Shown here: positions 272-59,436 of the stretch, piece by piece
How positions within the stretch are numbered: position 1 is the first letter of the stretch
Layout: the number at the start of each line of letters is the position of its first letter
Assembly (NCBI RefSeq): GCF_900129725.1
Contig: NZ_FQWQ01000003.1
Coordinates: 840,686-904,685, forward strand
DNA from: Chryseolinea serpens
Lineage (GTDB): Bacteria; Bacteroidota; Bacteroidia; Cytophagales; Cyclobacteriaceae
Length of the DNA stretch: 64,000 bases
Reading direction: 5' to 3'
Made by a program: the position numbers and the translations under genes
The notes under the pieces: model-generated
Databases searched by the model: none
What the model was told of the DNA's origin: nothing
What the model saw: the letters and a program-made list of their open reading frames with translations, nothing else

Positions 272-314
272 CGCCGTTGTTGGAGCGCCGTTGTTGGAGT
301 TCTTCTCCAACAAC
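272..314. repeat. TTCTT-loop hairpin repeat, copy A (GGAG stem variant)
   Basis: 290-314 is a perfect 10-bp stem (GTTGTTGGAG / CTCCAACAAC) around the loop TTCTT. A second left arm (CGCCGTTGTTGGAG) lies just upstream at 272-285. Compared with the other copies (GGTG/CACC), both arms have changed together, so the stem stays perfectly paired. Confidence 0.85.
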
Positions 315-381
315 ACCAGCTTCGTCACTCATTCCCAATACCAGCCAACGATACGTATCTTTACATCATAAACACACCACC

Positions 382-600
382 ATGAGCCAGGCATTTGTCA
401 GAGAAGGCGACGAACAATCGTTGTCGGAGATCGACCCAACCCTAAACGCCCTCATCCGTTTCCTCACCCTCGAGAACGGCGGCATACGCGTCTACGAAAA
501 ACGCGCCAACACCGACGCCGCCGGCAACACCTTACACACCATGAGCAACGGCCTCACCTACGGCAAAGACCAAAACGGCCGCTGGGAAATAAAGCAGTAG
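382..600 (+). CDS. Small hypothetical protein (72 aa)
   Basis: Start chosen at ATG 382 (MSQAFVREGDEQSLSEIDPT). The reading frame is open further upstream, but that part translates hairpin repeat copy A and is unlikely to be coding. The product is soluble and charged, with no signal peptide or membrane segment. The C-terminal half (NGLTYGKDQNGRWEIKQ) looks like a small beta-strand module. Family and function are not recognised. A TATCTTTA box at 356-363 resembles a Bacteroidota -7 element, but no good -33 partner is seen. Confidence 0.55.
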   Translation: MSQAFVREGDEQSLSEIDPTLNALIRFLTLENGGIRVYEKRANTDAAGNTLHTMSNGLTYGKDQNGRWEIKQ

Positions 601-619
601 CCACCACTCATCCGTCCCA

Positions 620-647
620 GCATAGTCTCCTGTCTCAGGGACTATGC
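620..647. repeat. GCATAGTC hairpin, single copy
   Basis: A 28-bp imperfect palindrome with arms GCATAGTC and GACTATGC. It lies between the end of the 382-600 gene and the end of the acidic-repeat gene. It belongs to the same family as the array at 1545-1716, so copies lie on both sides of the acidic-repeat gene. It could act as a bidirectional terminator for the two convergent genes. Confidence 0.75.
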
Positions 648-669
648 GTCCCCTTACCCACACGCACGA

Positions 670-1452
670 CTACTCATCCGCACGACTTCCTTTCGATTTA
701 CTCTTCTCCTTCTTAGCTGGCTTATACTTTTCTTTGGTATCGGATTTGTCCTTTTGCTTGTCTTTGTCTTTGTCTTTGACCTTGGTCTTATCCTTAGTCT
801 TTTCCTTAATCTTATCCTTATCCTTATCCTTGTCTTTATCCTTATCAGCCGATGAATTCAACTCGTCTTGTAAGATGGCTTCGTCATCATCATGATCATC
901 CCAATCGAAGCGATCATTATCCAGGTCAACGTCTACATCAACATCCATGTCGACATCAACTTCCACGGGTTCAACATCGATATCCACTTCCTCGATATCA
1001 ACTTCTACAGGCTCAACATCGATATCCATTTCCTCGACATCAACTTCAACGGGTTCAACATCAACGTCAATATCCTCGATATCAACTTCCACAGGTTCAA
1101 CATCAACGTCGATATCCTCGATATCAACCTCTACTGGCTCAACATCAATGTCCAGGTCTTCCAGCTCCTCCTCCATCGATTCCATGGCCAGTTCAATACT
1201 CGATTCAACCTCGTTTTCGATCTCCGCCTCGTCTATGTCAATATCAATATCCCATTCATTTGATCGGGTAGATACTTTCCTCAGACCCCTTGACCGGTCT
1301 GACTCGTCAGTAGGCTCATCTGTTTTGATCTTTTCTTTTTCAGGCTTCTTTTCCTGCTTTGCAGGTGCGGGGCCGACAGCCTGCGAAAAACCAGGCACAG
1401 CGATCATAAAAATCATCGCGAAAGCGACAAGGAAGCGGCTAAAAGGGCTCAT
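670..1452 (-). CDS. Secreted acidic 14-residue-repeat protein with Lys/Asp-rich tail
   Basis: 260 aa. Residues 1-24 form a signal peptide (MSPFSRFLVAFAMIFMIAVP, then GFSQA). Residues 66-190 are almost entirely Asp, Glu, Val and Ile. They contain a 14-residue repeat beginning EPVEV at residues 105, 119, 133, 147 and 161, encoded by 42-nt tandem repeats. Residues 203-256 are alternating Lys/Asp (KDKDKDKDK and variants), giving a polyampholyte tail. The alternating hydrophobic/acidic pattern (DIDVDV) suggests beta strands or a Ca2+-binding surface, but no catalytic domain is present. An envelope or extracellular role is inferred only from the signal peptide. Repeat number may vary between strains. 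The opposite strand is also open because of the low complexity; the signal peptide favours this strand. Confidence 0.75.
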   Translation of the reverse strand: MSPFSRFLVAFAMIFMIAVPGFSQAVGPAPAKQEKKPEKEKIKTDEPTDESDRSRGLRKVSTRSNEWDIDIDIDEAEIENEVESSIELAMESMEEELEDLDIDVEPVEVDIEDIDVDVEPVEVDIEDIDVDVEPVEVDVEEMDIDVEPVEVDIEEVDIDVEPVEVDVDMDVDVDVDLDNDRFDWDDHDDDEAILQDELNSSADKDKDKDKDKDKIKEKTKDKTKVKDKDKDKQKDKSDTKEKYKPAKKEKSKSKGSRADE

Positions 1453-1544
1453 AGCGAATTGGGAGTTTGGTACATAGCTACAATACCATCACTTTTAAAG
1501 AAGGTTACAGCGGCTGCCGACATATTCTTCCCAGCCAGCACGTC

Positions 1545-1716
1545 AGCACAGCACCCCCGTCTCAGGACCATGCGATCCCGGGGTAGCATAGTCTCCTGTC
1601 TCAGGGACTATGCGATCTCGTGGTAGCATAGTCCCCTGCCTCAGTGACTATGCGTTCTCCGCGGCAGCCTGGTCTCCTGCCTCAAGGTATGCGTTCTCCA
1701 GGGACTATGCGTTCTC
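1545..1716. repeat. 40-bp tandem hairpin array (GCATAGTC family)
   Basis: Four to five tandem units with a 40-bp period. The two best are the palindromes at 1586-1613 and 1626-1653 (arms GCATAGTC / GACTATGC); degenerate units flank them at about 1545-1574 and 1666-1716. There are no spacers and the units are too uniform for CRISPR. The last unit supplies the final codons and the stop codon (1705-1707) of the next minus-strand gene. Confidence 0.8.
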
Positions 1717-2100
1717 ATCCAACCACTTCTCCGCCTCCTCCGCGCTCCTGAAATTCTTCTTCGGAAACTGCGTAGTCTTCGCCACCGCATCCAACTGCAT
1801 CTCCGCCACATCATCTTTCACGAGCTCGGCCACTTTCCTGACACCGCCCTTCAACAACGTCGCCTGGGCCTGCTCATGAAGCTTGCGCACTTCCTGGGGA
1901 TGGGTTTTCATTTCACGCGCATCGGTCAGCAACGTGAAACCACTTTTTAATTTTGAAACGGCCTTGGTCCAGTCCGGCAAATAGTCGGGCACCACTTCCG
2001 GACTTCTCCAGAAACCAACGATGGTCAAATAGGCCCGGTTCTTTTCCGGTGACACGGCGATCTTGTACTGCTTGCTTTCGCGAATGATAGTGAGGGACAT
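1705..2100 (-). CDS. STAS/SpoIIAA-like domain protein
   Basis: 131 aa from ATG 2100. A single small alpha/beta domain is predicted. The N-terminal strands (YKIAVSPEKNRAYLTIVGFW), the 'GFTLLTDAREM' strand-turn and the helical C-terminus resemble the STAS/SEC14-like (SpoIIAA-like) family found in many Bacteroidota. No phosphorylatable Ser motif is obvious. It is soluble and cytoplasmic. Oddity: the last residues (ENA) and the stop lie inside the 40-bp repeat array, so the array has fixed the C-terminus. The family call is by fold pattern only. Confidence 0.65.
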   Translation of the reverse strand: MSLTIIRESKQYKIAVSPEKNRAYLTIVGFWRSPEVVPDYLPDWTKAVSKLKSGFTLLTDAREMKTHPQEVRKLHEQAQATLLKGGVRKVAELVKDDVAEMQLDAVAKTTQFPKKNFRSAEEAEKWLDENA

Positions 2101-2244
2101 ACAGAGGGTATTTGAAGTAACGCAAAGCTATTTGAAACCACGCAAATTCCCAAGAAGGCCCTCGCTCCAAAATTTCTTTTGCCTTTTGTTGTGACTTGCT
2201 TCGTGTAAGAGAATTATGAGGGGTGTTATCTAAACGTTAAAGCC

Positions 2245-3060
2245 ATGAAAGCAATTTGTTTTTCCCTGGCCGTCGTCACCTTGATGGCGTGTCATCCCCG
2301 TAGTGAAAAAGAACAAGAAAGTAAGGTTACGTATTCTGATTTGATCGTGGCAGCCGCAGATGAAGCTCCGGGGGCGCAGAATTATCTCACCCCACCCGCA
2401 GAAACCGATCGTAAACTCATCCGCGAGGCGCGACTGGAGATGGACGTTGCCTCGCTAAAAAATATCAGCGATTCCGTGAGCGTGCTCTTGCGCCAATACC
2501 AAGCCTATGCCTCCAACGAAGCGCAGGAAAATCAAAGGTATGATCTTCGAAAGACCATGACCATCCGCGTCGGCGAAGCGCAGTTTGAGCCCATGATGAA
2601 ACGACTGGAAACCTTGGCCACGCGCATCGTCGAACGGTCGGTCACCACGCAGGATGTCACCATGGAATACACCGACCTCCAGGCGCGTCTTCGCTCCAAA
2701 AAAGAATTGGAGGTCCGCTATCACGAAATACTCAAGCAAGCCAAGACCGTAAAAGACATGCTTGCCATCGAGGAACAGTTGGGCACGACCCGCGAAGAGA
2801 TCGAATCCATGGAAGCACGCTTCAAGCGCATGACCAACCTCACCACCTACTGCACGCTCGACGTTGTTTTCATTCAGCGCCTGCAAGCCCCGCCAACGGG
2901 CTTCGCCCAGGAGTTTAGTGTAGCCTTGAGAAACGGCTGGCGCAGCGTCATGAACGCCGTGCTGGCGTGTGTCAGCGTTTGGCCGTGGGCGTTCGTAGGC
3001 TTTGCGGTCATAGGTTTTGTGATCCGTTTCCGCAAACGGCGGATGGCCCAGGTTGGGTGA
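2245..3060 (+). CDS. DUF4349-family lipoprotein
   Basis: 271 aa. The N-terminus is a lipoprotein signal with the lipidated Cys at residue 16 (VVTLMAC). Residues about 50-225 match the DUF4349 pattern: a beta strand, then long amphipathic helices including VEYTDL-like 'TMEYTDLQARLRSKKELEVR' and a coiled-coil stretch 'LAIEEQLGTTREEIESMEAR'. A transmembrane helix at about 235-258 is followed by a basic tail (RFRKRR). The protein is therefore anchored at both ends, with the coiled coil outside the cytoplasm. DUF4349 proteins are common in Bacteroidota and their biochemical role is unknown. The gene appears monocistronic, followed about 200 bp later by a tonB-like gene. Confidence 0.85.
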   Translation: MKAICFSLAVVTLMACHPRSEKEQESKVTYSDLIVAAADEAPGAQNYLTPPAETDRKLIREARLEMDVASLKNISDSVSVLLRQYQAYASNEAQENQRYDLRKTMTIRVGEAQFEPMMKRLETLATRIVERSVTTQDVTMEYTDLQARLRSKKELEVRYHEILKQAKTVKDMLAIEEQLGTTREEIESMEARFKRMTNLTTYCTLDVVFIQRLQAPPTGFAQEFSVALRNGWRSVMNAVLACVSVWPWAFVGFAVIGFVIRFRKRRMAQVG

Positions 3061-3215
3061 AAATAAATTCTGATAAACCCCGTGACTTTTCCGTGACGCC
3101 GAACTTATAGGGGAAACAAGCTTCTAAGAATCACACTCTAATTGCCCGTGACAACACACAAATGGCAAAGCCGGTAGCGAAAAACGACCCGGACAGGAAC
3201 GACTTTGCCCCTGAT

Positions 3216-3265
3216 GTTCGTCGCGAAAACATATAGTTCATGTTCAACCTAAACCGTCTGTTTTT
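3216..3265 (+). promoter_or_regulatory. Conserved leader of first TonB paralogue
   Basis: The about 45 bp before the start codon (TCGCGAAAACAT..., ...CCTAAACCG.CTGT) are nearly repeated before the second paralogue at 4191-4239. Non-coding conservation right up to both ATGs indicates that the gene duplicated with its 5' untranslated region, and possibly retained a shared control element. Confidence 0.5.
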
Positions 3266-4051
3266 ATGAGAAACGAAAATGCAGAAGTTCCCAGCATGGA
3301 TGATCTGGTATTTGAAAACCGGAACAAAGAATACGGCGCCTACGTCATCCGTAAAGCCTACTACGACAATGTTCACAAGGCCCTGTTATATGTCATGGTC
3401 TTCTTCGCCGGCGTCATGCTGCTGACAATATTCTATCCGGGCGAGCCCCTGATCAAGGTGCCGGAAGTCGCCAAGAAAATCATTCAATTCAATATTCTTC
3501 CAACCATAGAAGCACCCCGTCCGGCGGCTCCTAGTGCTCCGGTGCGGCGAGCGGCCTCGCACGTAGCCCCCACGGTAACAACGGCCGTTGTCCCCGAGGA
3601 AATCACTCCGCCGGCAACGGACACAAACACGGGTGTGCCGGATGGCGCCGTCGATGGTGTGGCACCCATGGAAGGTACGGGACCTGCGACTGCCGAACCC
3701 GTTGTAGCCACGCCTGTGGAAACAGCACCTAAAGGACCGCTTGACATCGCTGAAGTCATGCCGCAATACAAAGGTGGCTTGCAAGCCATGGCAAGATTTG
3801 TGCAAAGAAATTTGAAGTATCCCGCCGTGGCACGGCGCATGGAGACGGAAGGCTTAGTTTACGTAAGCTTTATCATCGACACCAATGGCCGTGTCATCGA
3901 GGCCAAGGCAATAAAAGGCATCAGCAAGGAATGTGACGAAGAAGCCGTTCGCATGGTATCCGCCATGTCCGACTGGCTCGCCGGCCGCCAAGGCGGCGTA
4001 CCCGTCATGGTCCGCATGGTACTGCCCATCCGATTTCAATTGAATCGATAA
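3266..4051 (+). CDS. Energy transducer TonB family protein (paralogue 1)
   Basis: 261 aa. The cytoplasmic N-terminus has the Bacteroidota TonB signature 'FENRNKEYGAYVIRKAY' (residues 16-32). A transmembrane helix at about 38-58 follows, then an Ala/Pro/Val/Thr-rich periplasmic linker (about 80-160) and a TonB C-terminal domain (about 167-261, including NLKYPAVARRM and VYVSFIIDTNGRV). TonB proteins pass proton-motive force from ExbB/ExbD to outer-membrane receptors; no exbBD genes are in the window. The gene is followed by a paralogue of identical length with a similar leader. The linker contains runs of Ala-Pro and Pro-Val, as usual for spanning the periplasm. Confidence 0.9.
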   Translation: MRNENAEVPSMDDLVFENRNKEYGAYVIRKAYYDNVHKALLYVMVFFAGVMLLTIFYPGEPLIKVPEVAKKIIQFNILPTIEAPRPAAPSAPVRRAASHVAPTVTTAVVPEEITPPATDTNTGVPDGAVDGVAPMEGTGPATAEPVVATPVETAPKGPLDIAEVMPQYKGGLQAMARFVQRNLKYPAVARRMETEGLVYVSFIIDTNGRVIEAKAIKGISKECDEEAVRMVSAMSDWLAGRQGGVPVMVRMVLPIRFQLNR

Positions 4052-4190
4052 CCCCATCAGGCTTCCCCTGTGCGCCTTGCCTACCGCATCCCCGTTGTAT
4101 AGGCCATCTCCGTTGGTTCGGCGCACAGGGGCAAGATTGAGTTGACCGGGCTGGTGAAGTACACCAACCCCGGCAAACTCTGTCCGCTAC

Positions 4191-4239
4191 TTTCGTTGCG
4201 AAAACATTTACTCCCCGTTCATCCTAAACCGACTGTCTT
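4191..4239 (+). promoter_or_regulatory. Conserved leader of second TonB paralogue
   Basis: Matches the leader at 3216-3265 (GCGAAAACAT, GTTCA.CCTAAACCG). See the first copy for interpretation. Confidence 0.5.
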
Positions 4240-5025
4240 ATGAGAATCGAAAATGCAGAAATACAAAGCATGAATGACCTCGTCTTTGAAAACCGGAACA
4301 AAGCCTACGGTGCCTACTCCATCCGACAGGCCTACGCCAACAATGTTCAAAAAGCGTTGTTATTTGTGCTCGCCGCTCTCGCCGCCGCCCTGATCGTTAC
4401 GCTCTTTTTTCACGGCGAGCCCATGCTGGTAGACACGAAGCCCAACACGGGCATTGTATGGAATGATTTCCCGCAATTCAAATTAACACCACAGAAACGC
4501 GCTCCATCAGCGCCGGTGCGTCGCGCACAAAGCAACGTGGCACCTACCGTATCAACGCACCGCGACCCCGAGGAAGTAAAGGAACAACAAACCGACGCCA
4601 CTTCAGGAACTGCAGATGGCCCGCTCGTTGGCGAGGAACCCACAGACCCGGGAGCCATAGAAACAAAGACCGAGGTCGTTTCAATAGCTCCCCCGGAAAC
4701 ACATTCCGACCCGCTCACTTGGGTCAAGGCCATGCCCCAATTCGATGGCGGCCCGGAGGCCCTGGCGAGATACATGCGCAAAAACCTGAAGTATCCCGCC
4801 ATCGCGCGCCGCATGACGGTTGAAGGTGCCGTGTTCGTCAGCTTCGTCGTCAACACCGATGGTCGTGTCATCGATGTGAAAGTTATCAAGGGCATCATGA
4901 AAGAGTGCGACGAAGAAGCGGTACGGGTCGTGCAGAACATGCCGCCATGGATCGCCGGCCACCAAGACAACACACCCGTCATGGTCCGCATGGTGTTACC
5001 CATCCGGTTCCAGTTGAGTCATTAA
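4240..5025 (+). CDS. Energy transducer TonB family protein (paralogue 2)
   Basis: 261 aa, the same length and domain order as the upstream paralogue: N-terminal 'FENRNKAYGAYSIRQAY', a transmembrane helix at about 38-58, a Pro/Thr/Glu linker and a C-terminal TonB domain (NLKYPAIARRM, VFVSFVVNTDGRV). The ends are strongly conserved between the two and the linker has diverged, as expected for a tandem duplication in which only the anchor and the receptor-contact domain are constrained. The pair may serve different TonB-dependent receptors. A TTCTT-loop hairpin lies 15 bp past the stop and may terminate transcription. Confidence 0.9.
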   Translation: MRIENAEIQSMNDLVFENRNKAYGAYSIRQAYANNVQKALLFVLAALAAALIVTLFFHGEPMLVDTKPNTGIVWNDFPQFKLTPQKRAPSAPVRRAQSNVAPTVSTHRDPEEVKEQQTDATSGTADGPLVGEEPTDPGAIETKTEVVSIAPPETHSDPLTWVKAMPQFDGGPEALARYMRKNLKYPAIARRMTVEGAVFVSFVVNTDGRVIDVKVIKGIMKECDEEAVRVVQNMPPWIAGHQDNTPVMVRMVLPIRFQLSH

Positions 5026-5037
5026 TCCCACCCTACG

Positions 5038-5192
5038 CCGTTGTTGGTGTTCTTCACCAACAACATTTGATGGCAACGTACATTGACCGAACCAAATCAA
5101 TATTCGGGCAGGAATTGGATAACTACTGCCGTTCTCTTCCATCAACAATGATTCGCCGCATCTGTTGTTGGTGAAGAACACCAACAACGGCG
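5038..5192. repeat. Inverted pair of TTCTT-loop hairpins (copies B and C)
   Basis: Copy B at 5040-5064 (forward) and copy C at 5164-5188 (reverse) are the same perfect 10-bp stem with loop TTCTT. About 100 bp of unique sequence lies between them. The flank after the hairpin (CAGATGCGGCGAA, reading copy C on the minus strand) is shared with the copies at 5984, 6239 and the degenerate copy near 12994, so the unit is larger than the hairpin. The pair sits between the tonB-like gene and a convergent minus-strand gene. Confidence 0.8.
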
Positions 5193-5250
5193 GGTGGAGA
5201 TCATCTCCGTTGGCGCACAAGGGCAAGATGAATACCTGCTTTCTAAAGGT

Positions 5251-5939: not shown

Positions 5940-5960
5940 TCGCCAATTTAATAAAATCCC

Positions 5961-6008
5961 GCCGTTGTCGGTGTTCTCCCGCCGTTGTTGGTGTTCTTCA
6001 CCAACAAC
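5961..6008. repeat. TTCTT-loop hairpin repeat, copy D
   Basis: The perfect stem-loop at 5984-6008 is preceded by a partial extra left arm (GCCGTTGTCGGTGTTC, 5961-5976). It is followed by the shared flank AGACGCGGCGAAAG.CATTGTTGACAG, which recurs after copy E. Confidence 0.85.
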
Positions 6009-6057
6009 AGACGCGGCGAAAGTCATTGTTGACAGTGCCGAAACAGCAGTGCCCCAT

Positions 6058-6150
6058 GCGGCCCCCCCTCGTACCTCGGGGCCGGGCTATTCGTTCCAAG
6101 TCCGTCCACGCACGACCCACCCACTACGGGCTTTCCACTACTATCCCTGG
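6058..6150. repeat. Possible degenerate palindromic element
   Basis: GC-rich stretch with GGGCCGGGCTATTCGTTCCA in one half and GGGCTTTCCACTACTATCCC in the other. This layout (GGGCTATTCG...TCC, then GGGCTTTCCAC...TATCCC) resembles dispersed palindromic elements I associate with Bacteroidota genomes. No reading frame here is credible. Confidence 0.35.
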
Positions 6151-6217
6151 CCGGGCCACCGCCAAACACGTGCCCAATCACAAACCCTCACCAGCCGCAC
6201 AACCAACACCAGCTACC

Positions 6218-6263
6218 CCGTTGTTGGTGTCCCACGCCGTTGTTGGTGTTCTTCACCAACAAC
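6218..6263. repeat. TTCTT-loop hairpin repeat, copy E
   Basis: Perfect stem-loop at 6239-6263 with a partial extra left arm (CCGTTGTTGGTGTCC, 6218-6232). It is followed by AGACGCGACGAGGGGCATTG and then TTGACAGCGCCGAATAGCAAC, very similar to the flank of copy D about 255 bp upstream. The interval 5940-6461 holds only copies D and E and the degenerate element between them. Confidence 0.85.
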
Positions 6264-6461
6264 AGACGCGACGAGGGGCATTGTTGACAGCGCCGAATAG
6301 CAACAAAAAACTTCATGAATTAAGAGTCCAAAGAAGGGGAACACAAGTTAGATAAAGTGCCTCCATACCGGTATCGTTTTCGAGGATAACGGTGTACTGA
6401 AGCATGTTGTTGATGATTTAACTTTTTTTCTGATCTTGCATCCTCCAACGAAAACGTTATC

Positions 6462-7547: not shown

Positions 7548-7570
7548 CTGTCCGCCGTTCCGCCATTGTC

Positions 7571-7913
7571 CCGCCGTTGTTGGTGTTTTCACCAACAACA
7601 GATGCGACTCACAAACATTGTTACGCATTGCCTGTATTCTTAAACCCCGAATGGGGTTTAACGAACAATGGCCCCCCAGTGAAACTGGGGGAAACCAAAG
7701 ACAAAAACAATTGCGCCACGCTCGTGCTAAAATCGAAGAGCATCGCGTTCATGGCGCATCGTCGCAGCGCTCGGATGCAGAGCGCAGTTGCGTGCCAGAA
7801 CGCACGAAGCCAGATCCAATCGTTCCTGTGGCACTCCCTCGTGAAATTTTCGCTTTTTCCCCCGGGTTCACCGGGGGCCATTGTTCGTTAACCCCTTCGG
7901 GGTTGCAATGCGC
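7571..7913. repeat. Composite repeat unit 1: hairpin copy F plus complete MITE-like element
   Basis: Hairpin 7576-7599 (loop TTTT) is followed by about 40 bp and then a MITE-like element at about 7641-7907. The left end reads AACCCCGAATGGGGTT, CGAACAATGGCCCC, CAGTGAAACTGGGGG. The right end is its inverted counterpart (CCCCCGGGTTCACCGGGGGC, CATTGTTCG, AACCCCTTCGGGGTT), giving terminal inverted repeats of about 45 bp that each contain small hairpins. The core holds no transposase. Unit 2 repeats this arrangement 343 bp later. Confidence 0.8.
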
Positions 7914-8207
7914 CCGCCGTTGTTGGTGTTCTTCACCAACAACAGATATGGCAGCAAACATTACTATGCTTTGCCTGCATTAAACCCCGAATGGGGTTAC
8001 CGACCATAGCCCCCAGTGAAACTGGGGGAAACAAAGGCAGTAAAATAATTGCGCCACGCAGGAATTGAAATCGAAGCGCCCGCGTTCATGGCGCATCGTC
8101 GCAGCGCCTGGATGCAGGGCGCCGTTGCGGGCCAGAAAGCATGAAGCCTGATCCAGCCATTCCGCTGGCACACCATTGTGAATTTTCTTTTCGCTCGGTT
8201 TCACCCT
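7914..8207. repeat. Composite repeat unit 2: hairpin copy G plus truncated MITE-like element
   Basis: Hairpin 7919-7943 (loop TTCTT), the same 40-bp flank, then the left end AACCCCGAATGGGGTT at about 7984 and the CAGTGAAACTGGGGG hairpin. The core matches unit 1 (for example CGCGTTCATGGCGCATCGTC), but the right inverted end is missing, stopping at TCGGTTTCACCC near 8205. It is therefore a diverged tandem duplicate of unit 1. The two units fill the 679-bp gap between the lipoprotein and permease genes. Confidence 0.8.
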
Positions 8208-8226
8208 AATGTCAGGACGTATGCTG

Positions 8227-14092: not shown

Positions 14093-14095
14093 TTT

Positions 14096-19688: not shown

Positions 19689-19695
19689 TGTCTTG

Positions 19696-19862
19696 AATAA
19701 CCCCGGACTTTAGTCCGGGGGACAGACACCCACTTATGACGGGCTTTAGCCCTGACTTTCCGTCTGTATGTATCGCTGTCCGCCCGATCATCGGCGTGGT
19801 CAGGGCTAAAGCCCGTGAGTAGATATGGCTTGTATTTCCCCGGACTAAAGTCCGGGGTTATT
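19696..19862. repeat. Nested inverted REP pair (BIME-like)
   Basis: Outer palindromes CCCCGGACTTTAGTCCGGGG (19701-19720) and CCCCGGACTAAAGTCCGGGG (19838-19857) are in inverted orientation. Inner arms GACGGGCTTTAGCCCTGAC (19738-19756) and GTCAGGGCTAAAGCCCGT (19799-19816) are nested within them, so the whole 167 bp can fold into one long structure. This is the form of REP doublets mobilised by RAYT transposases; no such transposase is in the window. It lies between convergent genes. Confidence 0.85.
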
Positions 19863-19982
19863 CACATTTCTCTTCGAAAGATGTGTGCATAGACCAGGTC
19901 TGAAGGCCAGAGTTACTCAGGTTGCATTTAACCATCCTGTATCGGCAATAGATCAACCCAAGTTGATTACTTGATACAAAGA

Positions 19983-30194: not shown

Positions 30195-31076
30195 ATGCGA
30201 AAATCAAAATTGGTTGTGCTGGTCGTTTCGATCGTAGCATCTGTTCTTTTCTATGGCCTTCCCGCGAAAGGACAGACGCAGCCGGTCATCTATTTCTATC
30301 TCACGCCCTCTGTATCCGTCGAATCCATGGAGAAGAGTGGCAACTTCATCAAGGATTTCCTGGAGAAGGAAACCGGCATGACCATCAAGCTGGGGGTGCC
30401 ACCTAGCTACGACGAGTTGGTCGACAAGTTCGGGCAAAAGGAGCCTTGCTTCTCCATCATGAGTAGCCAAAGCTATGTGCTGGCCCACGAAAAATTCGGA
30501 GCCCAGGTAAAGCTCCGGTCGCTGCGCTATGGCCAGTCGGTATACTACGGCCAGATCATTTGTCGCGCCGGCTCAGGCATCAAGACCATCAAAGACCTGC
30601 AAGGAAAAAGCATCGCCTACACCGACGAGCTCTCCACATCCGGCTACTTATATCCCAAACAGATCCTGGACAAGAACAACATCAAACCGGCCAAGGTGGT
30701 GTTTGCCAAAAAGCACGATGAAGTCGTGCGCATGGTATACGAAGGCAAAGTAGACGCCGGCGCCGCCTTCTACTCCCCTCCCGGCCCCGACGGCGAAATG
30801 CACGACGCCCGCGCCCGCATCAAAGACAAATATCCCGATGTGGAAAAGAAAGTGATCACCCTCGTTAAGACCGAAGCCATTCCAAACGATCCCATCGTGT
30901 TCTCCAAAGCCTTTGATCCCGAAGCTGCCCGAAAGCTGTACGTCGCGTTGGTGAAACTCACGACGGAACAAAAGGGCAAGGAAATTCTTCGGGAATTGTA
31001 TGGATCGGAAGGATTTGTGAAAGCTTCGGATGCGGATTATAATTCGTTGCGCCAGGTGATGGGGGTGGTGAAATGA
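30195..31076 (+). CDS. PhnD-like phosphate/phosphonate-type periplasmic binding protein (orphan)
   Basis: 293 aa with a signal peptide (1-26, ending LPAKGQ). Two-lobe type II binding-protein fold: 'LTPSVSVESMEKSGNFIKDF', 'GQIICRAGSGIKTIKDLQGK', 'DELSTSGYLYPKQILDKN', 'GKVDAGAAFYSPPG'. This matches the PhnD/PtxB/AioX family, which binds phosphonate, phosphite or arsenite. No ABC permease, ATPase or sensor kinase is adjacent, so import by this locus alone is unlikely; a sensory or shared-transporter role is possible. A heptanucleotide repeat array begins directly at its stop codon. Confidence 0.88.
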   Translation: MRKSKLVVLVVSIVASVLFYGLPAKGQTQPVIYFYLTPSVSVESMEKSGNFIKDFLEKETGMTIKLGVPPSYDELVDKFGQKEPCFSIMSSQSYVLAHEKFGAQVKLRSLRYGQSVYYGQIICRAGSGIKTIKDLQGKSIAYTDELSTSGYLYPKQILDKNNIKPAKVVFAKKHDEVVRMVYEGKVDAGAAFYSPPGPDGEMHDARARIKDKYPDVEKKVITLVKTEAIPNDPIVFSKAFDPEAARKLYVALVKLTTEQKGKEILRELYGSEGFVKASDADYNSLRQVMGVVK

Positions 31077-31341
31077 GGAGCCAGAAGCCAGGAGCCAGGA
31101 GCCAGAATCTTTTGAATCGGAGATCAGTAGTCAGTAGCCAGTAGTCAGTAGTCAGTAGCGAGAAGTCAGTCATCGTGCACCAGCAGAAAGTAGTCATCAT
31201 ATGCCAAGTAGTTGCCAGCCAATACCCAATCAGCTGCCCATAAACAAAATAGCCAGTGTCTATTGCTTCTTAAAACAACAGACACCGGCTACTGACTACT
31301 GAATGCCGAGAACAAGCTCCTGGCTTCTGGCTCCTGAATCC
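31076..31341. repeat. Heptanucleotide-repeat element, copy 1
   Basis: Starts with tandem GGAGCCA-type heptamers (31076-31109) and CAGTAGT/CAGTAGC heptamers (31124-31170). After about 110 bp of unique sequence it ends with their inverted counterparts (GGCTACTGACTACTG at 31287-31301, then GCTCCTGGCTTCTGGCTCCTG at 31316-31336). The ends can pair as nested inverted repeats. It fills the space between two convergent genes, from stop to stop. Confidence 0.85.
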
Positions 31342-32115
31342 CTAGATATCCGAATACTCCACGGGCCGCAGAAAATAAATGTTGATTTTCGAGACGTTGT
31401 GCTGATACTCGCTCATACCCGAAAGCGTCTTCCACTCGGGGTCCGCGGAAAATGCTTTCCAATGCTCGTCGCGGGAAGCCTGGTTGGCGAAGGTGGTCAT
31501 GTACATGAGGTTGGGCATGCGGCTGCCGGAGAGCACTTCGGCATAGAAGACGGCGTTGAAGCCGAGGCGTTTGAACAGGGCGACTTCGTTGCCGTCGTTG
31601 AACATCTTTACTTTGTTCCGGTAGATCTTTTCCGTATATCCTTCATAGCTGCGCAACTCGTAGACGCGCTCGTTCACCGGCGTGGACAATTTGGGAACTT
31701 CCAGTTGTGTCATCTTTACGAAGGCCTGGAGCACGATGGTCTCGATGCGCGCATAGGGTGGATTATCGTAGGGGGCATTGAGATAGTCCGTACCCGACGA
31801 CTCATATTGTTTGTCCTTTAACAAGGTTTCGGGAAGCTTCACAAACTGATCCATCGAGGAAAACGGGGTAAGCACATAGATGCGTTTGCCAAACGTGGTG
31901 TCGGTTTCAACGGGTTTGAAAACACCCACCTTGGTGATGCCCGCCCGGTGTAAGGCGGGCAGATAGGCCTCCTTCAAAAATTTCTCCACCCGTTGTTCCT
32001 GGGTGCTGTTGGCAACATGGTAGATCTTGATCTCGTAGAATTCACGCTTTGGAGCCGCCACCACCACAGTGGCAAGGCCCAACACAAAAAAGATAAAGGA
32101 TAATGCTCGTTTCAT
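31342..32115 (-). CDS. NIPSNAP family protein
   Basis: 257 aa with a signal peptide (about 1-21). Two NIPSNAP-type ferredoxin-like domains: 'FYEIKIYHVANSTQEQRVEK' then 'YLPALHRAGITKVGVFKPVE'; and 'VYELRSYEGYTEKIYRNKVK' then 'LFKRLGFNAVFYAEVLSGSR'. Bacterial members are of unknown function, often exported in Bacteroidota. The gene is bracketed on both sides by inverted copies of the heptanucleotide element, and its stop codon lies 1 bp past copy 1. Confidence 0.9.
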   Translation of the reverse strand: MKRALSFIFFVLGLATVVVAAPKREFYEIKIYHVANSTQEQRVEKFLKEAYLPALHRAGITKVGVFKPVETDTTFGKRIYVLTPFSSMDQFVKLPETLLKDKQYESSGTDYLNAPYDNPPYARIETIVLQAFVKMTQLEVPKLSTPVNERVYELRSYEGYTEKIYRNKVKMFNDGNEVALFKRLGFNAVFYAEVLSGSRMPNLMYMTTFANQASRDEHWKAFSADPEWKTLSGMSEYQHNVSKINIYFLRPVEYSDI

Positions 32116-32191
32116 ATAGGGATAAATAATAGTGCAGTGAAGGTACGGTAAGAATCTAAATTTAGCTTACGGTTAGGTTGCCGCCAGTGTA

Positions 32192-32512
32192 AAAGAATCA
32201 GGAGCCAGGAGTCAGGAGCTTGTGCTCGGCATTCAGTAGTCAGTAGCTAGTAGTCAGTATTCAGTAGCTAGTAGCCAGTATTTAGAAGTCAATAGCCAAT
32301 CGATTGGCAGTCGGTATGCTATGGGCCAAAGTAGTTAATGGTCAATGCCCTGGTCGGTGACCGGTAGAATATACGTAATGATGTTTGTTCTCAAACAACT
32401 CGCGTGGCCAATTGCTTACCGAATCATTGGCTACTGGCTACTGACTACTGGCTACTGGCTACTGGCTACTGGCTACTGAAGGCCGCCTGCTGACTCCTGG
32501 CTCCTGGCTCCT
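32192..32512. repeat. Heptanucleotide-repeat element, copy 2 (inverted relative to copy 1)
   Basis: Begins CAGGAGCCAGGAGTCAGGAG followed by CTTGTGCTCGGCATTCAGTAG, which is the reverse complement of the right end of copy 1. Heptamers GTAGTCA/GTAGCTA follow, then about 100 bp of unique sequence, then at least six tandem GGCTACT heptamers (32429-32478) and GGCTCCT heptamers up to the stop of the mtgA gene. It occupies nearly all of the 395-bp gap. Confidence 0.85.
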
Positions 32513-48985: not shown

Positions 48986-49047
48986 GAACTATTTCATCCC
49001 GTTTCTTTTTTAGTGAGGAAGCTAAACGTCCACAAAAGGATGAGGCC

Positions 49048-51012: not shown

Positions 51013-51035
51013 TCTTTTGCTGTACGAAAGACGGA

Positions 51036-51283: not shown

Positions 51284-51347
51284 AAAACCGGCAGTACTTC
51301 ATCATTCTGCGGACACGCACTAGTCACTCCAGCGCGATGGGCTCCTT

Positions 51348-54025: not shown

Positions 54026-54088
54026 AATGAATAATTTTTAAGGATGAAACTTAAATCACTATGCAAAGATGCCGGGGCGATCATTCCT

Positions 54089-54112
54089 AAACGTTGTCAT
54101 ATGACAACGTTT
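54089..54112. promoter_or_regulatory. Perfect 24-bp palindromic operator
   Basis: AAACGTTGTCATATGACAACGTTT reads the same on both strands; its core TTGTCA-N2-TGACAA resembles Crp/Fnr half-sites. It lies between the Crp-family gene and the tautomerase-like gene, 64 bp before the latter's start and overlapping the first base of the former's stop codon. It has no T-run, so an operator is more likely than a terminator. Confidence 0.65.
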
Positions 54113-54690
54113 TAGAGCTTTGCTTTTAATTTACTCAGCGTGGAGTTGGTCATGCCCAGATAAGAGGCAACGGCCTTGCTCGAAATACGGGTCAAAAGCT
54201 TGGGCTCGTGTTCCATGACCCATTTAAGTCTGTCGATGCCTTCCATTCCAAGAAATATATAAACCCGCATTTGCGAATGGACAAAGGCAAACTCCATAAA
54301 CTTATGGTAGAGCGCCTCCACCGCGGGAAAGGTTTGAAAGGCTTTGTAGAAATCCTCCCGGTTGATGATCAGAAGCTCCGAGGGCTCATGCGCAGCCAAA
54401 AAATCGCGTGACTTTTTCTGGGTGATGAAACTGGTGATGGCACTGATGATACTGTCCTCCAGCGCAAACTTGCCCGTGATCTCATTTCCCTTTTTATCGA
54501 TTTCATAAAGCCGCAGGCAACCCGTGGCCACGAAATAAAAATGCTTGCACACCTTTCCCTCTTGCTCCAGCATGTGATGACGCTTCACCTTTTTATAATG
54601 GAACAGCGAAATCACGGCTTCAATATCGGCCTCGCTCAATGCCGTGTTTTCCTGGAAATACCTGGCAAGACGTAAATAAGCTTTATCCAT
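54112..54690 (-). CDS. Crp/Fnr-family transcriptional regulator
   Basis: 192 aa. The N-terminal cyclic-nucleotide-binding-type beta-roll (about 15-120: 'HHMLEQEGKVCKHFYFVATG', 'NEITGKFALEDSIISAITSF') leads to a long dimerisation helix and a C-terminal winged helix ('LLTRISSKAVASYLGMTNST', 'LSKLKAKL'). The recognition helix is typical of Bacteroidota members. No Fe-S Cys cluster is seen. It probably binds the palindrome at its 3' end and controls the tautomerase-like gene. Confidence 0.9.
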   Translation of the reverse strand: MDKAYLRLARYFQENTALSEADIEAVISLFHYKKVKRHHMLEQEGKVCKHFYFVATGCLRLYEIDKKGNEITGKFALEDSIISAITSFITQKKSRDFLAAHEPSELLIINREDFYKAFQTFPAVEALYHKFMEFAFVHSQMRVYIFLGMEGIDRLKWVMEHEPKLLTRISSKAVASYLGMTNSTLSKLKAKL

Positions 54691-55062
54691 AGACCAACTG
54701 AATCAAAAAATGTGTAATCCGAAAATTCCAATCGTCGAATATAGCGAATTTAAAACGGGCGCTCGCCGAAGAAGGTTCTGTCTTACAACGCCACTTTCTT
54801 TATTGTACTATTGCCGGGACTGGATTATAACATCGTTTGGTGGAACGCCCGCCTTGTGTCTTAAAAATATTTGAGAAAGCCATCACGAATTTACAGGCTG
54901 CAAAATCCTTTCAGTGATGGATGCTAACATTGTGTTGGTGTCCGGAGAGCGATCGCGTTAGGTAATTCTTTCAAAATGTTAGCCATGGAAATGTCTCATT
55001 GATGATTTTCAATCATCTAAAAAAAAATTCAAATCTATTTTCCGATCTATGGACTAACAAGA
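54691..55062. other. 372-bp A/T-rich upstream interval
   Basis: No gene seen. It presumably contains the promoter of the Crp-family gene. A run of A's at 55020-55028 and an A/T-rich stretch precede the small gene at 55063. Confidence 0.45.
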
Positions 55063-55209
55063 ATGAAGGTGGAGGTTTTTCGTAAAAATCAAGAGGCGAG
55101 AGAATACCTTAACAGCGTAGACTGGAACGAGTGGGAAAAAGTATTTGAGCAAACGGAAGCGGACGAAAGAAAGCGGGGAGATCAGCAAGCCGGACACAAC
55201 CCGTTATAG
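55063..55209 (+). CDS. Possible small acidic protein (48 aa)
   Basis: Frame MKVEVFRKNQEAREYLNSVD and then WNEWEKVFEQTEADERKRGD. Amphipathic helix pattern, balanced Glu/Lys/Arg, no hydrophobic segment. The amino-acid composition is protein-like, unlike the overlapping plus frame 55145-55459. Function unknown. Confidence 0.4.
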   Translation: MKVEVFRKNQEAREYLNSVDWNEWEKVFEQTEADERKRGDQQAGHNPL

Positions 55210-55531
55210 TTATCAGTCGGTAAGAGAAAAAGCTCTTCTTCTTCACTTGGTCTTTTTCGTTGCCTGCAAAGCCCCCAGCAGATCAATCTCAACACGGGAT
55301 ACGATCATACGCCAATCAAAATTCCACGACTTGAAGTGTAAGCGGCATCGCGCCAGTGCCATGGGCGGAGAGGTCTGGATCACACCCGCGCCGCTGCCCG
55401 ATTCCGAACCCCCCATTTTCAAAAACGGATACAACGCACCCGGCATGGGCGCAAAATGACCTCAAAATGAGCCTTTCGACCCGTTTGAAAGGTGGAACGA
55501 ATTTGGTAACGCCAACCAAAACTTTTAGCGC
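55210..55531. other. 322-bp interval without a supported gene
   Basis: Weak open frames on both strands have no domain signals. It contains the probable promoter region of the permease gene. Confidence 0.4.
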
Positions 55532-57994
55532 ATGATCCGGAATTATTTAATTGTAGCCTGGCGCAACCTTGTAAGGAATCGCGTGTTTTCAACCATCAAC
55601 ATTGCCGGGCTCGCCATCGGCCTGTCCATTTGTGGTCTGATCTATCAATACATTCAATTCGAACGCAGCTACGACCGGTTCAATGCCAACGCCGACCGGC
55701 TCTATCGCGTCACCCTGAGCAACATTGACGCCGACCATTCCCAACACGAGTCCGCTACGAACCACCCGGCTGTGGCCCCGGCCATGAAGGCCGATTTCCC
55801 CGAAGTGGAGGCGTTTTCGCGTTTGGCGCGGACCAATTTCTTCGTCAGCTCCGTCACCCTCTCCACGCAGGATAAAAAGGGAAATGCACTGGCGTTCAAC
55901 GAAGAGAAAATGTTTCTGGCCGACGCGCCGTTTCTTACCATGTTTTCCTATCCGCTGTTGCAAGGCAACCCGGCCACGGCGCTGAAGGAGCCGAACTCCA
56001 TCGTTATCTCCGAGACCATCAGCAAAAAATTCTTTGGCGATGAACCCGCACTGGGAAAACAATTGAGCCTGAACCGTGAAGTCAGCCTCACAGTAACAGG
56101 CGTGTTAAAAGATGTTCCTCAAAATTCACACCTGTCGTTCAACGTGCTCGTCTCCTTCTCTTCCCTCAGCGAAAAGTGGGGCTATGATCAATGGCGCTGG
56201 CCGGAATTCTACAACTACATTTTGCTCAAACCAGGAGCAAGCCGCACCGCGTTAGAAAGCAAACTGCCGGCCTTTGTCGATAAATACCTGGGCGACGTGA
56301 AGCGCGAGTACAAGTGGGACATCCGCATGTTCCTGCAACCCGTGTCTTCCATTCACCTCACCTCCAACCTGGCCCTGGAACAAGATACCAACGGAAGCGA
56401 ACGGGTGGTCTACTTCCTGGGCTTGCTGGGCATTTTCATCCTGGTGGTGGCGTGGATCAACTACATCAACTTGTCTACGGCCAAGTCACTGGAACGCAGC
56501 AAGGAAGTAGGACTGCGCAAAGTGGTTGGGGCGAGCAAACAGCAATTGGTCATCCAATTCTTCTTCGATGCTTTCCTGGTGAACTTCCTGGCGATGGTGG
56601 TGTCGGCCGGCGTGCTGGTGGTGGCGATGCCGTTCTTTGAGCAGATCGTTGAAAAGGATATCAGTGGTGTATTGTATGAGCATGGCTTGTGGGCAAACCC
56701 CGGCATTTTGATCCTGGCCCTCCTCATTCTTTTTATCGGAACGCTTTTGGTGGGCGCTTATCCCGCATTATTGCTGTCGTCGTTCAATCCGGCGCAGGTG
56801 TTGAAAGGAAAATTCTATAAATCGGCGTCGGGTCAATGGCTGCGACAAGGTTTGGTTTCCTTTCAATATATGTTGTCAATTTTTCTGATCGCGGGCACGA
56901 TCGCCATGTACCGTCAATTGTCGTTCATGCAGAAACAGGATCTGGGCTATGCGAAAGACCAGGTGCTGGTGCTAAAGACACCGGCCGTGTTCGACTCCAC
57001 GATCATGACCCATATTTCATGGTTCAAAGATGCCGTGACCCAATTGGCTTCCGTAAAAAATGCCACCGTCTCCAATGGCGTTCCGGGCAAAGTGCTACTG
57101 GCCCGCAACGGAGCCCGCAGGATCAGCCAGGCGCCCGACGCAAACTTCAACTGCTACCAGAAATCAATCGATGAAAATTTTCTTTCCACCTTCGGCATCA
57201 CGCTGCTGGCCGGCCACGATCTGACCAAGCAAGATTTGTTTGTCTATGATAAGGAAGCGCCGATCCTCATCAACGAAGTCATGAGCCAAAAGTTAGGCTT
57301 TGCCAAACCGGAGGATGCGCTCCACGAAAAAATATCCTTTGGCATGGGACCGAACGAGCAACACGGAGAGATCGTGGGCGTCATCAAAAACTATCACCAG
57401 GTTTCACTGCACGAGAGCTATGAGCCGATGATGTTCATCAACCCCGATTTCTTTTCCTGGAATTATATTTCCATCCACCTGGGCACCGGCAACATGACCG
57501 CATCGATCGACGCCGTAAAAAAAGTATATGACGAAGCTTTCCCCAACAACGCATTCGAGTACTTTTTCCTCGACGAATACTTCAACCGTCAGTACAATTC
57601 CGACGTCCGCCTCGGCAGTGTCTTTGGCATCTTCACCGTCCTGGCGATCATCATTGCCTGCATGGGCTTGCTGGGGCTTTCGATTTTTGCCGTGGTCCAT
57701 CGCACCAAAGAAGTCGGCATCCGCAAAGTGCTGGGAGCGTCGGTAACGACCATCCTGGCTTTGTTCTCCCGCGATTTTATAAAGCTCCTGCTGGTGGCCT
57801 ATTTCATCGCCATGCCCCTTGTATATTTTGCTGTGAACCGCTGGCTCTCGAGCTTTGCCTTCCACATCTCTCCGGGATGGGATGTGTACGTAGCGCCCCT
57901 GATCATCTTGCTGATCATCTCCATTTCAACGGTAGGGTTCATCTGTTTCCGCGCCGCCACCGCCAACCCAACAAACTCATTGCGACAGGAATAA
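55532..57994 (+). CDS. FtsX/MacB-type ABC transporter permease (paralogue)
   Basis: 820 aa, the same architecture as the gene at 8227-10686: 'MIRNYLIVAWRNLVRNRVFS', first helix about 20-40, a large MacB_PCD periplasmic domain, 'RSKEVGLRKVVGASKQQLVI' coupling helix, a second periplasmic domain, and a C-terminal FtsX unit with 'RTKEVGIRKVLGASVTTILA' and two helices. Inner membrane. No ATPase is adjacent. The 3' end abuts a repeat element and a convergent gene. Confidence 0.92.
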   Translation: MIRNYLIVAWRNLVRNRVFSTINIAGLAIGLSICGLIYQYIQFERSYDRFNANADRLYRVTLSNIDADHSQHESATNHPAVAPAMKADFPEVEAFSRLARTNFFVSSVTLSTQDKKGNALAFNEEKMFLADAPFLTMFSYPLLQGNPATALKEPNSIVISETISKKFFGDEPALGKQLSLNREVSLTVTGVLKDVPQNSHLSFNVLVSFSSLSEKWGYDQWRWPEFYNYILLKPGASRTALESKLPAFVDKYLGDVKREYKWDIRMFLQPVSSIHLTSNLALEQDTNGSERVVYFLGLLGIFILVVAWINYINLSTAKSLERSKEVGLRKVVGASKQQLVIQFFFDAFLVNFLAMVVSAGVLVVAMPFFEQIVEKDISGVLYEHGLWANPGILILALLILFIGTLLVGAYPALLLSSFNPAQVLKGKFYKSASGQWLRQGLVSFQYMLSIFLIAGTIAMYRQLSFMQKQDLGYAKDQVLVLKTPAVFDSTIMTHISWFKDAVTQLASVKNATVSNGVPGKVLLARNGARRISQAPDANFNCYQKSIDENFLSTFGITLLAGHDLTKQDLFVYDKEAPILINEVMSQKLGFAKPEDALHEKISFGMGPNEQHGEIVGVIKNYHQVSLHESYEPMMFINPDFFSWNYISIHLGTGNMTASIDAVKKVYDEAFPNNAFEYFFLDEYFNRQYNSDVRLGSVFGIFTVLAIIIACMGLLGLSIFAVVHRTKEVGIRKVLGASVTTILALFSRDFIKLLLVAYFIAMPLVYFAVNRWLSSFAFHISPGWDVYVAPLIILLIISISTVGFICFRAATANPTNSLRQE

Positions 57995-57995
57995 G

Positions 57996-58110
57996 GAAGG
58001 CCTACAAGTTTGCCGACAGAGCACGTCGTCCCGCAGGCACAAACTGCCTCGAACTTCGCACTTGTTCAAGGGACCCCGTGGATAGCGCAATGAAATTCGT
58101 GTGGTGATGC
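57996..58110 (+). repeat. P module of the convergent-gene element, extra tandem copy
   Basis: About 115 bp beginning GAAGGCCTACAAGTTTGCCG, repeated 122 bp later at 58118 (GAAGCCCTACAGATTTGCCG). Shared blocks include ACCCCGTGGATAGCGCAATG and GTGTGGTGATGCA. It starts 2 bp past the permease stop. Confidence 0.8.
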
Positions 58111-58117
58111 AATTAAA

Positions 58118-58490
58118 GAAGCCCTACAGATTTGCCGACAGCGCATGTCGTTCCGCAGGCACAAACTGCCTCGAGCCTCGCACGCGTTCAAGGAACCCCG
58201 TGGATAGCGCAATGAAATCCGTGTGGTGATGCATTTCGAAGGGGGCGGAACGCTTTCGGTGTGCGCTTGGCATTATTCAACGTGGAGCACATCTCATGTC
58301 ATATAAAACAAAACGAATCCCTGGATCTGCAGGGTGACGCGTTCTGAACGAGCGGCGCGCTATCTGTACTTGCCGGGTTTCGTTTTATTTCTCGTGCAGT
58401 GCTTCCGGATTCACTGCTCTCGAAACTCGGGATGTCTTGAATTACGAGCGTGCGTTTTTAAACCATTCGTGCCTGCGACATGACGTGCGG
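58118..58490 (+). repeat. Convergent-gene element with inverted ends, copy 2
   Basis: P module (58118-58235), a variable middle containing GGGCGGAACGCTTTCGGTGT, and R module (58340-58490) with CTCTCGAAACTCGGGATGTC and CCATTCGTGCCTGCGACATG. The outer ends (ATGTCGTTCCGCAGGCAC and GTGCCTGCGACATGACG) are inverted repeats. Located between convergent gene stops at 57994 and 58515. Confidence 0.8.
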
Positions 58491-58514
58491 GCCCTGCGAC
58501 ATATCGATAGGGTG

Positions 58515-59345
58515 TCACCTCAACAAATTAGCTGGTATTTTACTAATGGACTGAATCTCAATATTCCGGTAATAAACCTCAGCGCCTTCGCTTTGCAACT
58601 GGATCTTCCCCTCCTGCAATGGCGTCAGCTTGCCGTTGTCGAGCTGACTGGAATGTTGCAGCACCATGACCACTTTCCCATTCATCACGTGCACCGCCGT
58701 GCCACCATAACAATAGAGCTCCACCACGTTCCATTCGCCAGACGGTTTCTCGGCGTCGGGATTTTTTATGCAGTGTCTTCCCTGGGGCGATTTCTCGTTG
58801 AACAGGAGTAGTTTTTCTTTGGGGTTGTAAATGTAGTTAGCAGAATCTCCCTTGGCGGTCACTTCAAACGATCCGCCGGCAACACCCCAATAGTCGCCGC
58901 AGTCGCCTTCCTGGAGTTGAAATTCCTGTGAGCGCATCCAGAATCCGAAGTCGGCCCCGTGCTCGCCAACGGCATGGTAGAGCAAGCCGCTGTCGCGCTT
59001 GTTGTTTTTCTTGGGATGTGATTTGGACTGGCCCCATTTGAACTCCAGCCGCAGGTGATAGTTCTTGAACGCCCGTTGTGTGGAAATGCCGCCGAAACGT
59101 TCACCGGATATTCGCAGTGCCGCGCGGCCATCGATGGTCACGATAGAGAAGACTTTCAGGGGATCGGTGTTCAGACCGAGGGGAGTGTGGTCCCACACGT
59201 TTAAGATCGTGTCGTAGGAGGGACCCAAATACGTATCCCAGCCGGCCAGATCTTTTTCAGTCAATAGTTTTGTCCAGGGAGGATCTTGCGAGATGCCTTT
59301 GGTTGAAAGAAGGACCGAAAACAAAAGTAAGATTGATTGGCGCAT
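58515..59345 (-). CDS. DUF1080 (3-keto-disaccharide hydrolase-like) exported protein
   Basis: 276 aa with a signal peptide (1-19, ending KGISQ). One laminin-G/concanavalin-like beta-sandwich of the DUF1080 family: 'PPWTKLLTEKDLAGWDTYLG', 'NYHLRLEFKWGQSKSHPKKN', 'RDSGLLYHAVGEHGADFGFW', 'MRSQEFQLQEGDCGDYWGVA' and 'EWNVVELYCYGGTAVHVMNG'. Members bind or hydrolyse glycans, and some cleave 3-keto-glycosides. Probably periplasmic or extracellular. Confidence 0.92.
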   Translation of the reverse strand: MRQSILLLFSVLLSTKGISQDPPWTKLLTEKDLAGWDTYLGPSYDTILNVWDHTPLGLNTDPLKVFSIVTIDGRAALRISGERFGGISTQRAFKNYHLRLEFKWGQSKSHPKKNNKRDSGLLYHAVGEHGADFGFWMRSQEFQLQEGDCGDYWGVAGGSFEVTAKGDSANYIYNPKEKLLLFNEKSPQGRHCIKNPDAEKPSGEWNVVELYCYGGTAVHVMNGKVVMVLQHSSQLDNGKLTPLQEGKIQLQSEGAEVYYRNIEIQSISKIPANLLR

Positions 59346-59411
59346 GATGATTTTTGATAATGATTATCCACCCGATGATATATAAGGTACGAATTCTTAT
59401 TGAAATTTGCC

Positions 59412-59436
59412 CATGTTGGTGTTCTTCACCAACATG
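59412..59436. repeat. TTCTT-loop hairpin repeat, copy H (CATG stem variant)
   Basis: CATGTTGGTG / CACCAACATG with loop TTCTT. Relative to the main form both outer trinucleotides have changed together (GTT to CAT and AAC to ATG), keeping all ten pairs. It lies more than 46 kb from the other copies, in a 345-bp gap that otherwise holds only the R module at its right end. Confidence 0.85.

Follow-up and report, generated by a model that had tools for sequence, protein, structure and literature searches.

What is known of repetitive extragenic palindromic (REP) elements rests mostly on the GTAG elements of Proteobacteria. A GTAG and a CGTC family were defined by Di Nocera 2013 (PMC3733652). Bacteroidetes REP-associated tyrosine transposases (RAYTs) of TnpA_REP subclass 2.6, which according to PMC6006769 holds RAYT group 5 of Bertels 2017, are described with motifs NH[LIV]H, WQ and YIH[QN]NP and with 'atypical' structures lacking GT[AG]G (Quentin 2018, PMC6006769); the same text names W94, Q95, E100, H101 and R104 as GTAG-contact residues. 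Here we describe a family of hairpins in a 64,000-nucleotide stretch of the Chryseolinea serpens genome (contig NZ_FQWQ01000003.1, positions 840,686 to 904,685; hereafter the window). These hairpins are very probably REP elements of an xCC-tag class (mostly CGCC/GCC), non-autonomous and dependent for their movement on a RAYT from the HUH/Y1 family.

Like the GTAG REPs of E. coli, Pseudomonas and Stenotrophomonas, the hairpins combine an unpaired 5′ tag with a palindrome, form inverted dimers, flank a RAYT and lie mostly outside genes. They differ in the tag, which is xCC (CGCC here; GCC, TCC and CCC in relatives) and not GTAG or GTGG. The RAYTs differ in the contact residues: in an alignment to 4er8, a REP-hairpin-bound RAYT, the E100 and H101 positions were replaced and R104 was variable, W94 was kept in 10 of the 12 RAYTs printed (the motif was unmatched in two), and Q95 was E or Q. 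CGTC REPs share a C-rich tag and 4-5 nt loops and are known from Bacteroidetes too (PMC3733652). Their third tag base differs, however, the column frequencies here show no CCA tail, and CGTC itself tags only 2 of 122 genome copies; for that family, a RAYT with CGTC REPs at its sides was looked for in vain (PMC3733652). The ends of IS200/IS605 elements (IS608, ISDra2) resemble our system in the HUH/Y1 fold and in a hairpin with a 5′ guide, whereas here hairpins spread without the gene and the genome's own protein passes a REP-family model. Subclass 2.6 is alike in its Bacteroidetes hosts, in structures without GT[AG]G both by the gene and elsewhere in the genome, in serines after the catalytic tyrosine and in a guide-contact region that is not conserved (PMC6006769); the motifs of our family are NH[MFIL]H, W[EQ] and YIHxNP. 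The structures reported there are weaker, were found by manual inspection and come, in the passages concerned, with no tag or rule (PMC6006769), in contrast to the mostly perfect 10-bp stems, xCC tag and GTG/CAC apex seen here, a comparison made by description. A literature search over titles and the starts of abstracts returned no title on an xCC-tagged REP; PMC6006769 and PMC3733652 bear on Bacteroidetes REPs, and the word Bacteroidetes is absent from the searched passages of PMC2817692. The system is a variant of the known RAYT/REP kind, to which the tag, hairpin rule, spread, clade and predicted GG/GC code seem to be new additions.

All eight hairpins named in the initial annotation are present, each with ten of ten stem bases paired (Table 1). 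Each comprises a CGCC tag (TGCC at 59408), a perfect 10-bp stem and a loop, which is TTCTT in seven of the eight and TTTT in the copy at 7576. The reported stem swaps, GGTG/CACC to GGAG/CTCC and outer GTT/AAC to CAT/ATG, are real, as are the extra partial left arms. A loose motif matched the window 44 times, compared with 19.5 ± 4.1 in shuffled sequence, and none of 100 shuffles reached 44. Five copies were each folded alone with DNA parameters (29-30 nt, two identical); all gave the same hairpin with the tag unpaired (5/5) and z from -4.5 to -6.6. In the single longer stretch folded (70 nt, 6231-6300), the tag was in part paired to the 3′ flank. The supposed conserved extension of 35 bp (AGACGCGGCGAAA..CATTGTTGACAG) did not generalise: only 5984 and 6239 share it, with 5164 (minus strand) carrying part of it, and the 65-bp unit is local to a few copies and not the unit of the whole family.

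Copies are not confined to the window. A 25-nt pattern allowing up to 3 mismatches gave 118 strand matches (57+61; 100 places listed individually) across the whole source genome (G000; 8.36 Mb, 10 contigs), and the backwards-read control gave 0. With the loop left free, 171 palindromic sites were found (the first 50 listed), revealing a sister type with loop TCC on the same TTGTTGGTG stem. Copies were then read in 528 kb, made up of 78 stretches around listed matches plus the window and covering part of the genome's complement. These held 133 TTCTT-type matches (up to 4 mismatches in 21 nt, some being chance matches in genes) and 73 of the TCC type. At least 8 of 10 positions formed Watson-Crick or G-U pairs in 122 of the 133, our well-paired set. 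In this set the loop was TTCTT in 110 copies and the CGCC tag complete in 103, each of the four bases 5′ of the stem standing at 90-96%. No base exceeded 55% in the 3′ flank, and a search for a conserved 3′ motif gave weak C[AG]GC enrichment alone (39/115 copies, against 10-14 further 3′). The TCC type carries a looser tag, CCC plus one base, before the stem. It is numerous only in G000 and the same-genus genome G001, with matches in 5 of 146 genomes, the other three having one or two imperfect ones.

The hairpins lie beside a RAYT. In an all-against-all comparison of 2920 open reading frames (ORFs) within 1.5 kb of hairpins, one family was outstanding, a RAYT with 22 groups (some the same stretch twice); the next, ABC permease-like by eye, occurred at 7 loci. 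The RAYT-type transposase that the initial annotation proposed to look for was thereby found, hairpin-flanked, both in the source genome and in other Bacteroidota. The genome's own RAYT (C8:32095-32604, minus strand) is encoded on a contig other than that of the window; four hairpins of the same strand precede it and an inverted one follows 58 nt beyond the stop. A second, weaker match to the RAYT profile was counted in the genome. The protein is accepted by NCBIfam NF047646, 'REP-associated tyrosine transposase' (90.4 bits, cut-off 80); two relatives scanned with this model scored 78.8 and 62.6 bits, under the cut-off. Its AlphaFold model (pLDDT, the predicted local confidence, 85.5) had 4er8 as best structural match (E 2.1e-8), and the HUH motif and catalytic tyrosine (H60, H62, Y136) were invariant in 9/9 aligned RAYTs. 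A Pfam Y1_Tnp search missed this RAYT, which scores under the Pfam cut-off. Two genes that the search did return (L031, L032) were rejected as cognate, the 3.2-3.3 kb around each carrying no TTCTT- or TCC-type hairpin. Dispersed, palindromic, extragenic, tagged at the 5′ side, paired as inverted dimers and placed beside a RAYT, the hairpins have the general attributes of REP elements, and the REP-like half of the original proposal stands.

The association of tag and transposase extends beyond this genome. A profile of nine RAYTs matched in 101 of 146 genomes, and the flanks of 80 distinct RAYTs were scanned for hairpins without a sequence rule; the sample comprises the window's order plus contigs carrying the hairpin, a part of the phylum. 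Among 64 RAYTs with at least 150 bits (profile of A1), 47 had a flanking hairpin of at least 9 bp, which was CC-tagged in 44 and present on both sides in 23. Thirty shuffles of the flanks gave means of 1.07 with a hairpin, 0.03 CC-tagged and 0 on both sides. When loci retrieved by way of the hairpin were excluded, 53 RAYTs were left, of which 31 were CC-tagged, 17 on both sides, while RAYTs below 150 bits were tagged in 2 of 15 cases and never on both sides. The 56 tagged hairpins ended their tags in GCC (32), TCC (9), CCC (6), CCT (4), ACC (3) or other (2), and their apex was GTG/CAC in 50 and GTC/GAC in 6. On a midpoint-rooted tree of the 80 RAYTs, 40 of the 43 tagged rows fall in one clade of 60 rows (support 99/98); the three outside are two near-identical RAYTs and one possibly chance case. 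The tagged label required at least 14 changes, compared with a shuffled mean of 26.9, and 0/500 shuffles were as low. Genomes with a strong RAYT (E<=1e-50) had two or more hairpin matches in 11 of 31 cases, against 5 of 115 for the others (Fisher p 1.6e-5, uncorrected for kinship). Two other RAYT-like frames, L122 (= L191) and L124 (= L180), end within a TTCTT hairpin (peptide LLVFFTN), a sign that REPs may have inserted into RAYT genes. An interrupted RAYT copy, L143/L222, proved to be a cluster of RAYT fragments in which exact insertion ends are unreadable. The RAYTs at L323 and L324 belong to a different group, and the hairpins in their flanks, built from AATCG, a stem and a GTTTGCAAC apex, may form a further REP tag class.

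The 21-nt core recurs without mismatch in at least 105 stretches, from named Bacteroidota (Ohtaekwangia koreensis, Chryseosolibacter histidini, Roseivirga, Ilyomonas limi, Segetibacter aerophilus) and many metagenome-assembled genomes (MAGs), and spans several Bacteroidota families. One stretch lies in a Zixiibacteriota MAG and one in Serratia oryzae, the latter with no CC directly before the stem and possibly due to chance. Within the genus, comparison with G001 revealed differences at several sites. The inverted pair at 5036-5192 is absent from the orthologous G001 site, where both flanks align. The intact TCC-type hairpin (loop TCT) that G001 carries at the 6216 site is represented in the window by its tag, left arm and loop, which run straight into a TTCTT-type unit. 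An additional TCC-type hairpin is present only in G001 at the L047 site and only in the source genome at C8:670.6k, and at C8:663k a tandem array in G001 faces one copy and a remnant in the source genome. These differences point to movement or turnover, in either direction, and they support the suggestion that copies insert into or beside one another.

Pairing changes in the stem were counted by cells, which are not independent events since copies share descent. Over all 133 matches, two-sided changes that kept the pair numbered 89 cells, where shuffles gave 26.1 (maximum 39), and 69 cells were broken; among the 115 copies with a ..CC tag, 24 of 1150 cells were unpaired (22 scored broken plus two G-G at pair 1). 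Most covariation is held by the outermost pair (GT/AC 46, CT/AG 35, TT/AA 24 and CA/TG 6 of 122), which was scored from the well-paired and unfiltered sets, its two-sided count being distorted in the tag-filtered set. Hairpins beside related RAYTs included 22 distinct 10-nt stems, with eight of ten positions variable. Such hairpins were found by their pairing, so the control is shuffled flanks; their differences are stronger evidence of pairing than the copies of the source genome. The compensatory change claimed for the stems holds at the outermost pair and across RAYT lineages.

We infer that the RAYT binds hairpin and 5′ tag together as single-stranded DNA, probably on the lagging-strand template. 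The tag would act as a guide, a nearby cleavage dinucleotide being picked by cross-complementarity, and the tyrosine would cut and rejoin. Single hairpins, tandem units and inverted pairs could in this way be copied or moved to intergenic DNA, sometimes into an older hairpin, with the own-genome RAYT as the presumed driver of spread. For GTAG, changed positions are described to shift the cleavage dinucleotide as cross-complementarity predicts (Nucleic Acids Res. 2021, PMC8266576). Applied to a tag ending in CC, that rule predicts cutting at GG, or at GC through the second base. Of 115 copies, 89 had a GC within 15 nt 3′ of the hairpin; regions further 3′ gave 57-68 and regions further 5′ gave 57-72.

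Several observations weigh against mobilisation of these hairpins by such a RAYT. GG within 15 nt 3′ (64/115) exceeded the regions further 3′ (33-49) but hardly the 5′ side (41-61), so that the predicted GG/GC code, somewhat enriched for GC and for GG against the 3′ side alone, is weakly supported. The tagged label is clustered but patchy on the RAYT tree: 20 of the 60 clade rows have no tagged hairpin by the strict rule, some having imperfect ones. A TTGTTGGTG/TCC hairpin flanked none of the 80 RAYTs examined, leaving the TCC type without a found RAYT. Two or more hairpin matches occur without a strong RAYT match in G004, G005, G056, G069 and G140, and G003 has a 260-bit RAYT yet no TTCTT-type match. 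The G001 site matching 5036-5192 is not cleanly empty, holding about 60 other bases, and presence/absence can reflect loss as much as gain. Compensatory change does not stand out at the nine inner pairs of this genome's copies: in the tagged set, pairs 2-10 had 16 cells changed on both sides and 17 broken, about the same number, which comes close to the balance that the initial annotation named as refuting.

Arrangement and gene context bear on what else the hairpins might be. The 195 hairpins form 109 clusters, 59 of them single and 50 with 2-7 copies. Both strands occur in 27 of the 50, plus one degenerate site read both ways, with start-to-start spacing mostly about 100-170 bp and a few of 34-44. 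Of 181 well-paired hairpins, 159 lie between ORFs predicted by a length rule without a gene caller, 21 inside and 1 at an edge; random places fell 16% between and 83% inside. Intergenic hairpins occupy convergent (61), tandem (88) and divergent (10) gaps, with 63, 151 and 66 gaps above 40 bp available, and divergent gaps are avoided. This avoidance of the promoter side, together with the stable fold (though computed with DNA parameters), would suit an element acting in RNA, whose transcribed hairpin stabilises, processes or terminates mRNA and whose spread is incidental. We consider such a role unlikely. Strand bias relative to neighbouring genes in tandem gaps was not significant (TTCTT type, 35 same and 24 opposite, p 0.19; TCC type, 17 and 12, p 0.46), and an Rfam search gave no match to the hairpins, and the RNA-processing half of the initial annotation is thus not supported. 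T-runs are scarce, as had been noted (TTTT within 8 nt 3′ in 9/110 TTCTT-type and 17/71 TCC-type copies), and an intrinsic terminator, a hairpin followed by a T-run on the gene's strand, was rejected as an identity. An RNA-level role also leaves the tag and the RAYT association unexplained; any host role of the hairpins is probably secondary.

The exactness of the 21-nt core across several families, and its presence in the flanks of 12 RAYTs with a median pairwise identity of 47% (22-97%), would be expected of protein-binding palindromes under selection (nucleoid, gyrase or replication-fork sites), with the RAYT as a domesticated housekeeper. Turnover inside the genus and the lack of any hairpin match at up to 2 mismatches in 122 of the 146 genomes searched make this very unlikely. 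Inverted pairs with spacers resemble miniature inverted-repeat transposable elements (MITEs) with terminal repeats, a reading under which the hairpins would be the termini of such an element, or of a classical transposon, that an unrelated transposase moves while the RAYT is a bystander. That is exceedingly improbable given that the RAYT is the commonest family beside the hairpins, that more than half of the clusters are single hairpins, and that hairpins by other RAYTs vary in sequence yet retain the tag. Integron attC sites were dropped, the inverted pairs and RAYT association being a misfit.

Table 1. Hairpins and hairpin parts of the family in the window
Position	Strand	Feature	Basis and remarks
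272..285	+	Orphan tag and left arm (CGCC GTTGTTGGAG)	Directly abuts next tag
286..314	+	TTCTT-type REP	Tag CGCC 286-289, stem GTTGTTGGAG/CTCCAACAAC; folded
4147..4171	-	Probable diverged ninth copy, loop TACTT, one T-G pair	Weak; lies between a pair of similar genes
5036..5064	+	TTCTT-type REP, left half of inverted pair	Sequence, folded
5164..5192	-	TTCTT-type REP, right half of inverted pair, tag 5189-5192	Sequence, folded
5960..5979	+	Orphan tag, left arm and partial loop	Sequence
5980..6008	+	TTCTT-type REP, then local AGACGCGGCGAAA..GACAG extension	Sequence
6216..6233	+	Part of TCC-type hairpin: tag, left arm, loop, without own right arm	G001 comparison
6235..6263	+	TTCTT-type REP fused to apex of TCC-type hairpin	Sequence, G001 comparison
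7572..7599	+	REP with TTTT loop	Sequence, folded
7915..7943	+	TTCTT-type REP	Sequence
59408..59436	+	TTCTT-type REP, tag TGCC, outer pairs CA/TG	Sequence, folded

Other repeats occur in the window. A dispersed repeat of about 100 bp (6056-6157) lies beside hairpins. G001 contains at least 22 others matching it (40 of 215 candidates scored), and it overlaps a sub-threshold Rfam match to Flavo-1 RNA on the minus strand (31.3 bits, gathering 42, E 0.0016). A longer repeat present twice (7619-7895 and 7970-8200), with arms containing AACCCCGAATGGGGTT and CCCCCAGTGAAACTGGGGG-like palindromes, may represent another REP-type family. A perfect 27-nt inverted repeat (arm TGAATAACCCCGGACTTTAGTCCGGGG, 117 nt separating the arms) is found at 19694-19864, and units of the AGTAGTCAGT / GGCTACTGACTACTG type, in both orientations, make up low-complexity tracts at 31060-32512.

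The chances are evenly balanced, in our view, that these elements constitute a third REP superfamily, in which a Bacteroidota-wide RAYT clade reads xCC and not GTAG, and cuts and inserts at GG/GC and not CT. If so, one 21-nt hairpin sequence would have stayed exactly the same as its RAYTs drifted apart to about 47% identity and crossed from family to family, and comparison of lineages could resolve the contacts between tag, loop and protein. An xCC tag with its own RAYT clade offers a natural test of the guide model; should xCC indeed predict GG/GC cutting, base-paired choice of the cleavage site would be general. For Bacteroidota, the gain would be a small mobile element recognisable by a diagnostic rule, xCC followed by a stem of about 10 bp that usually ends in GTG/CAC.

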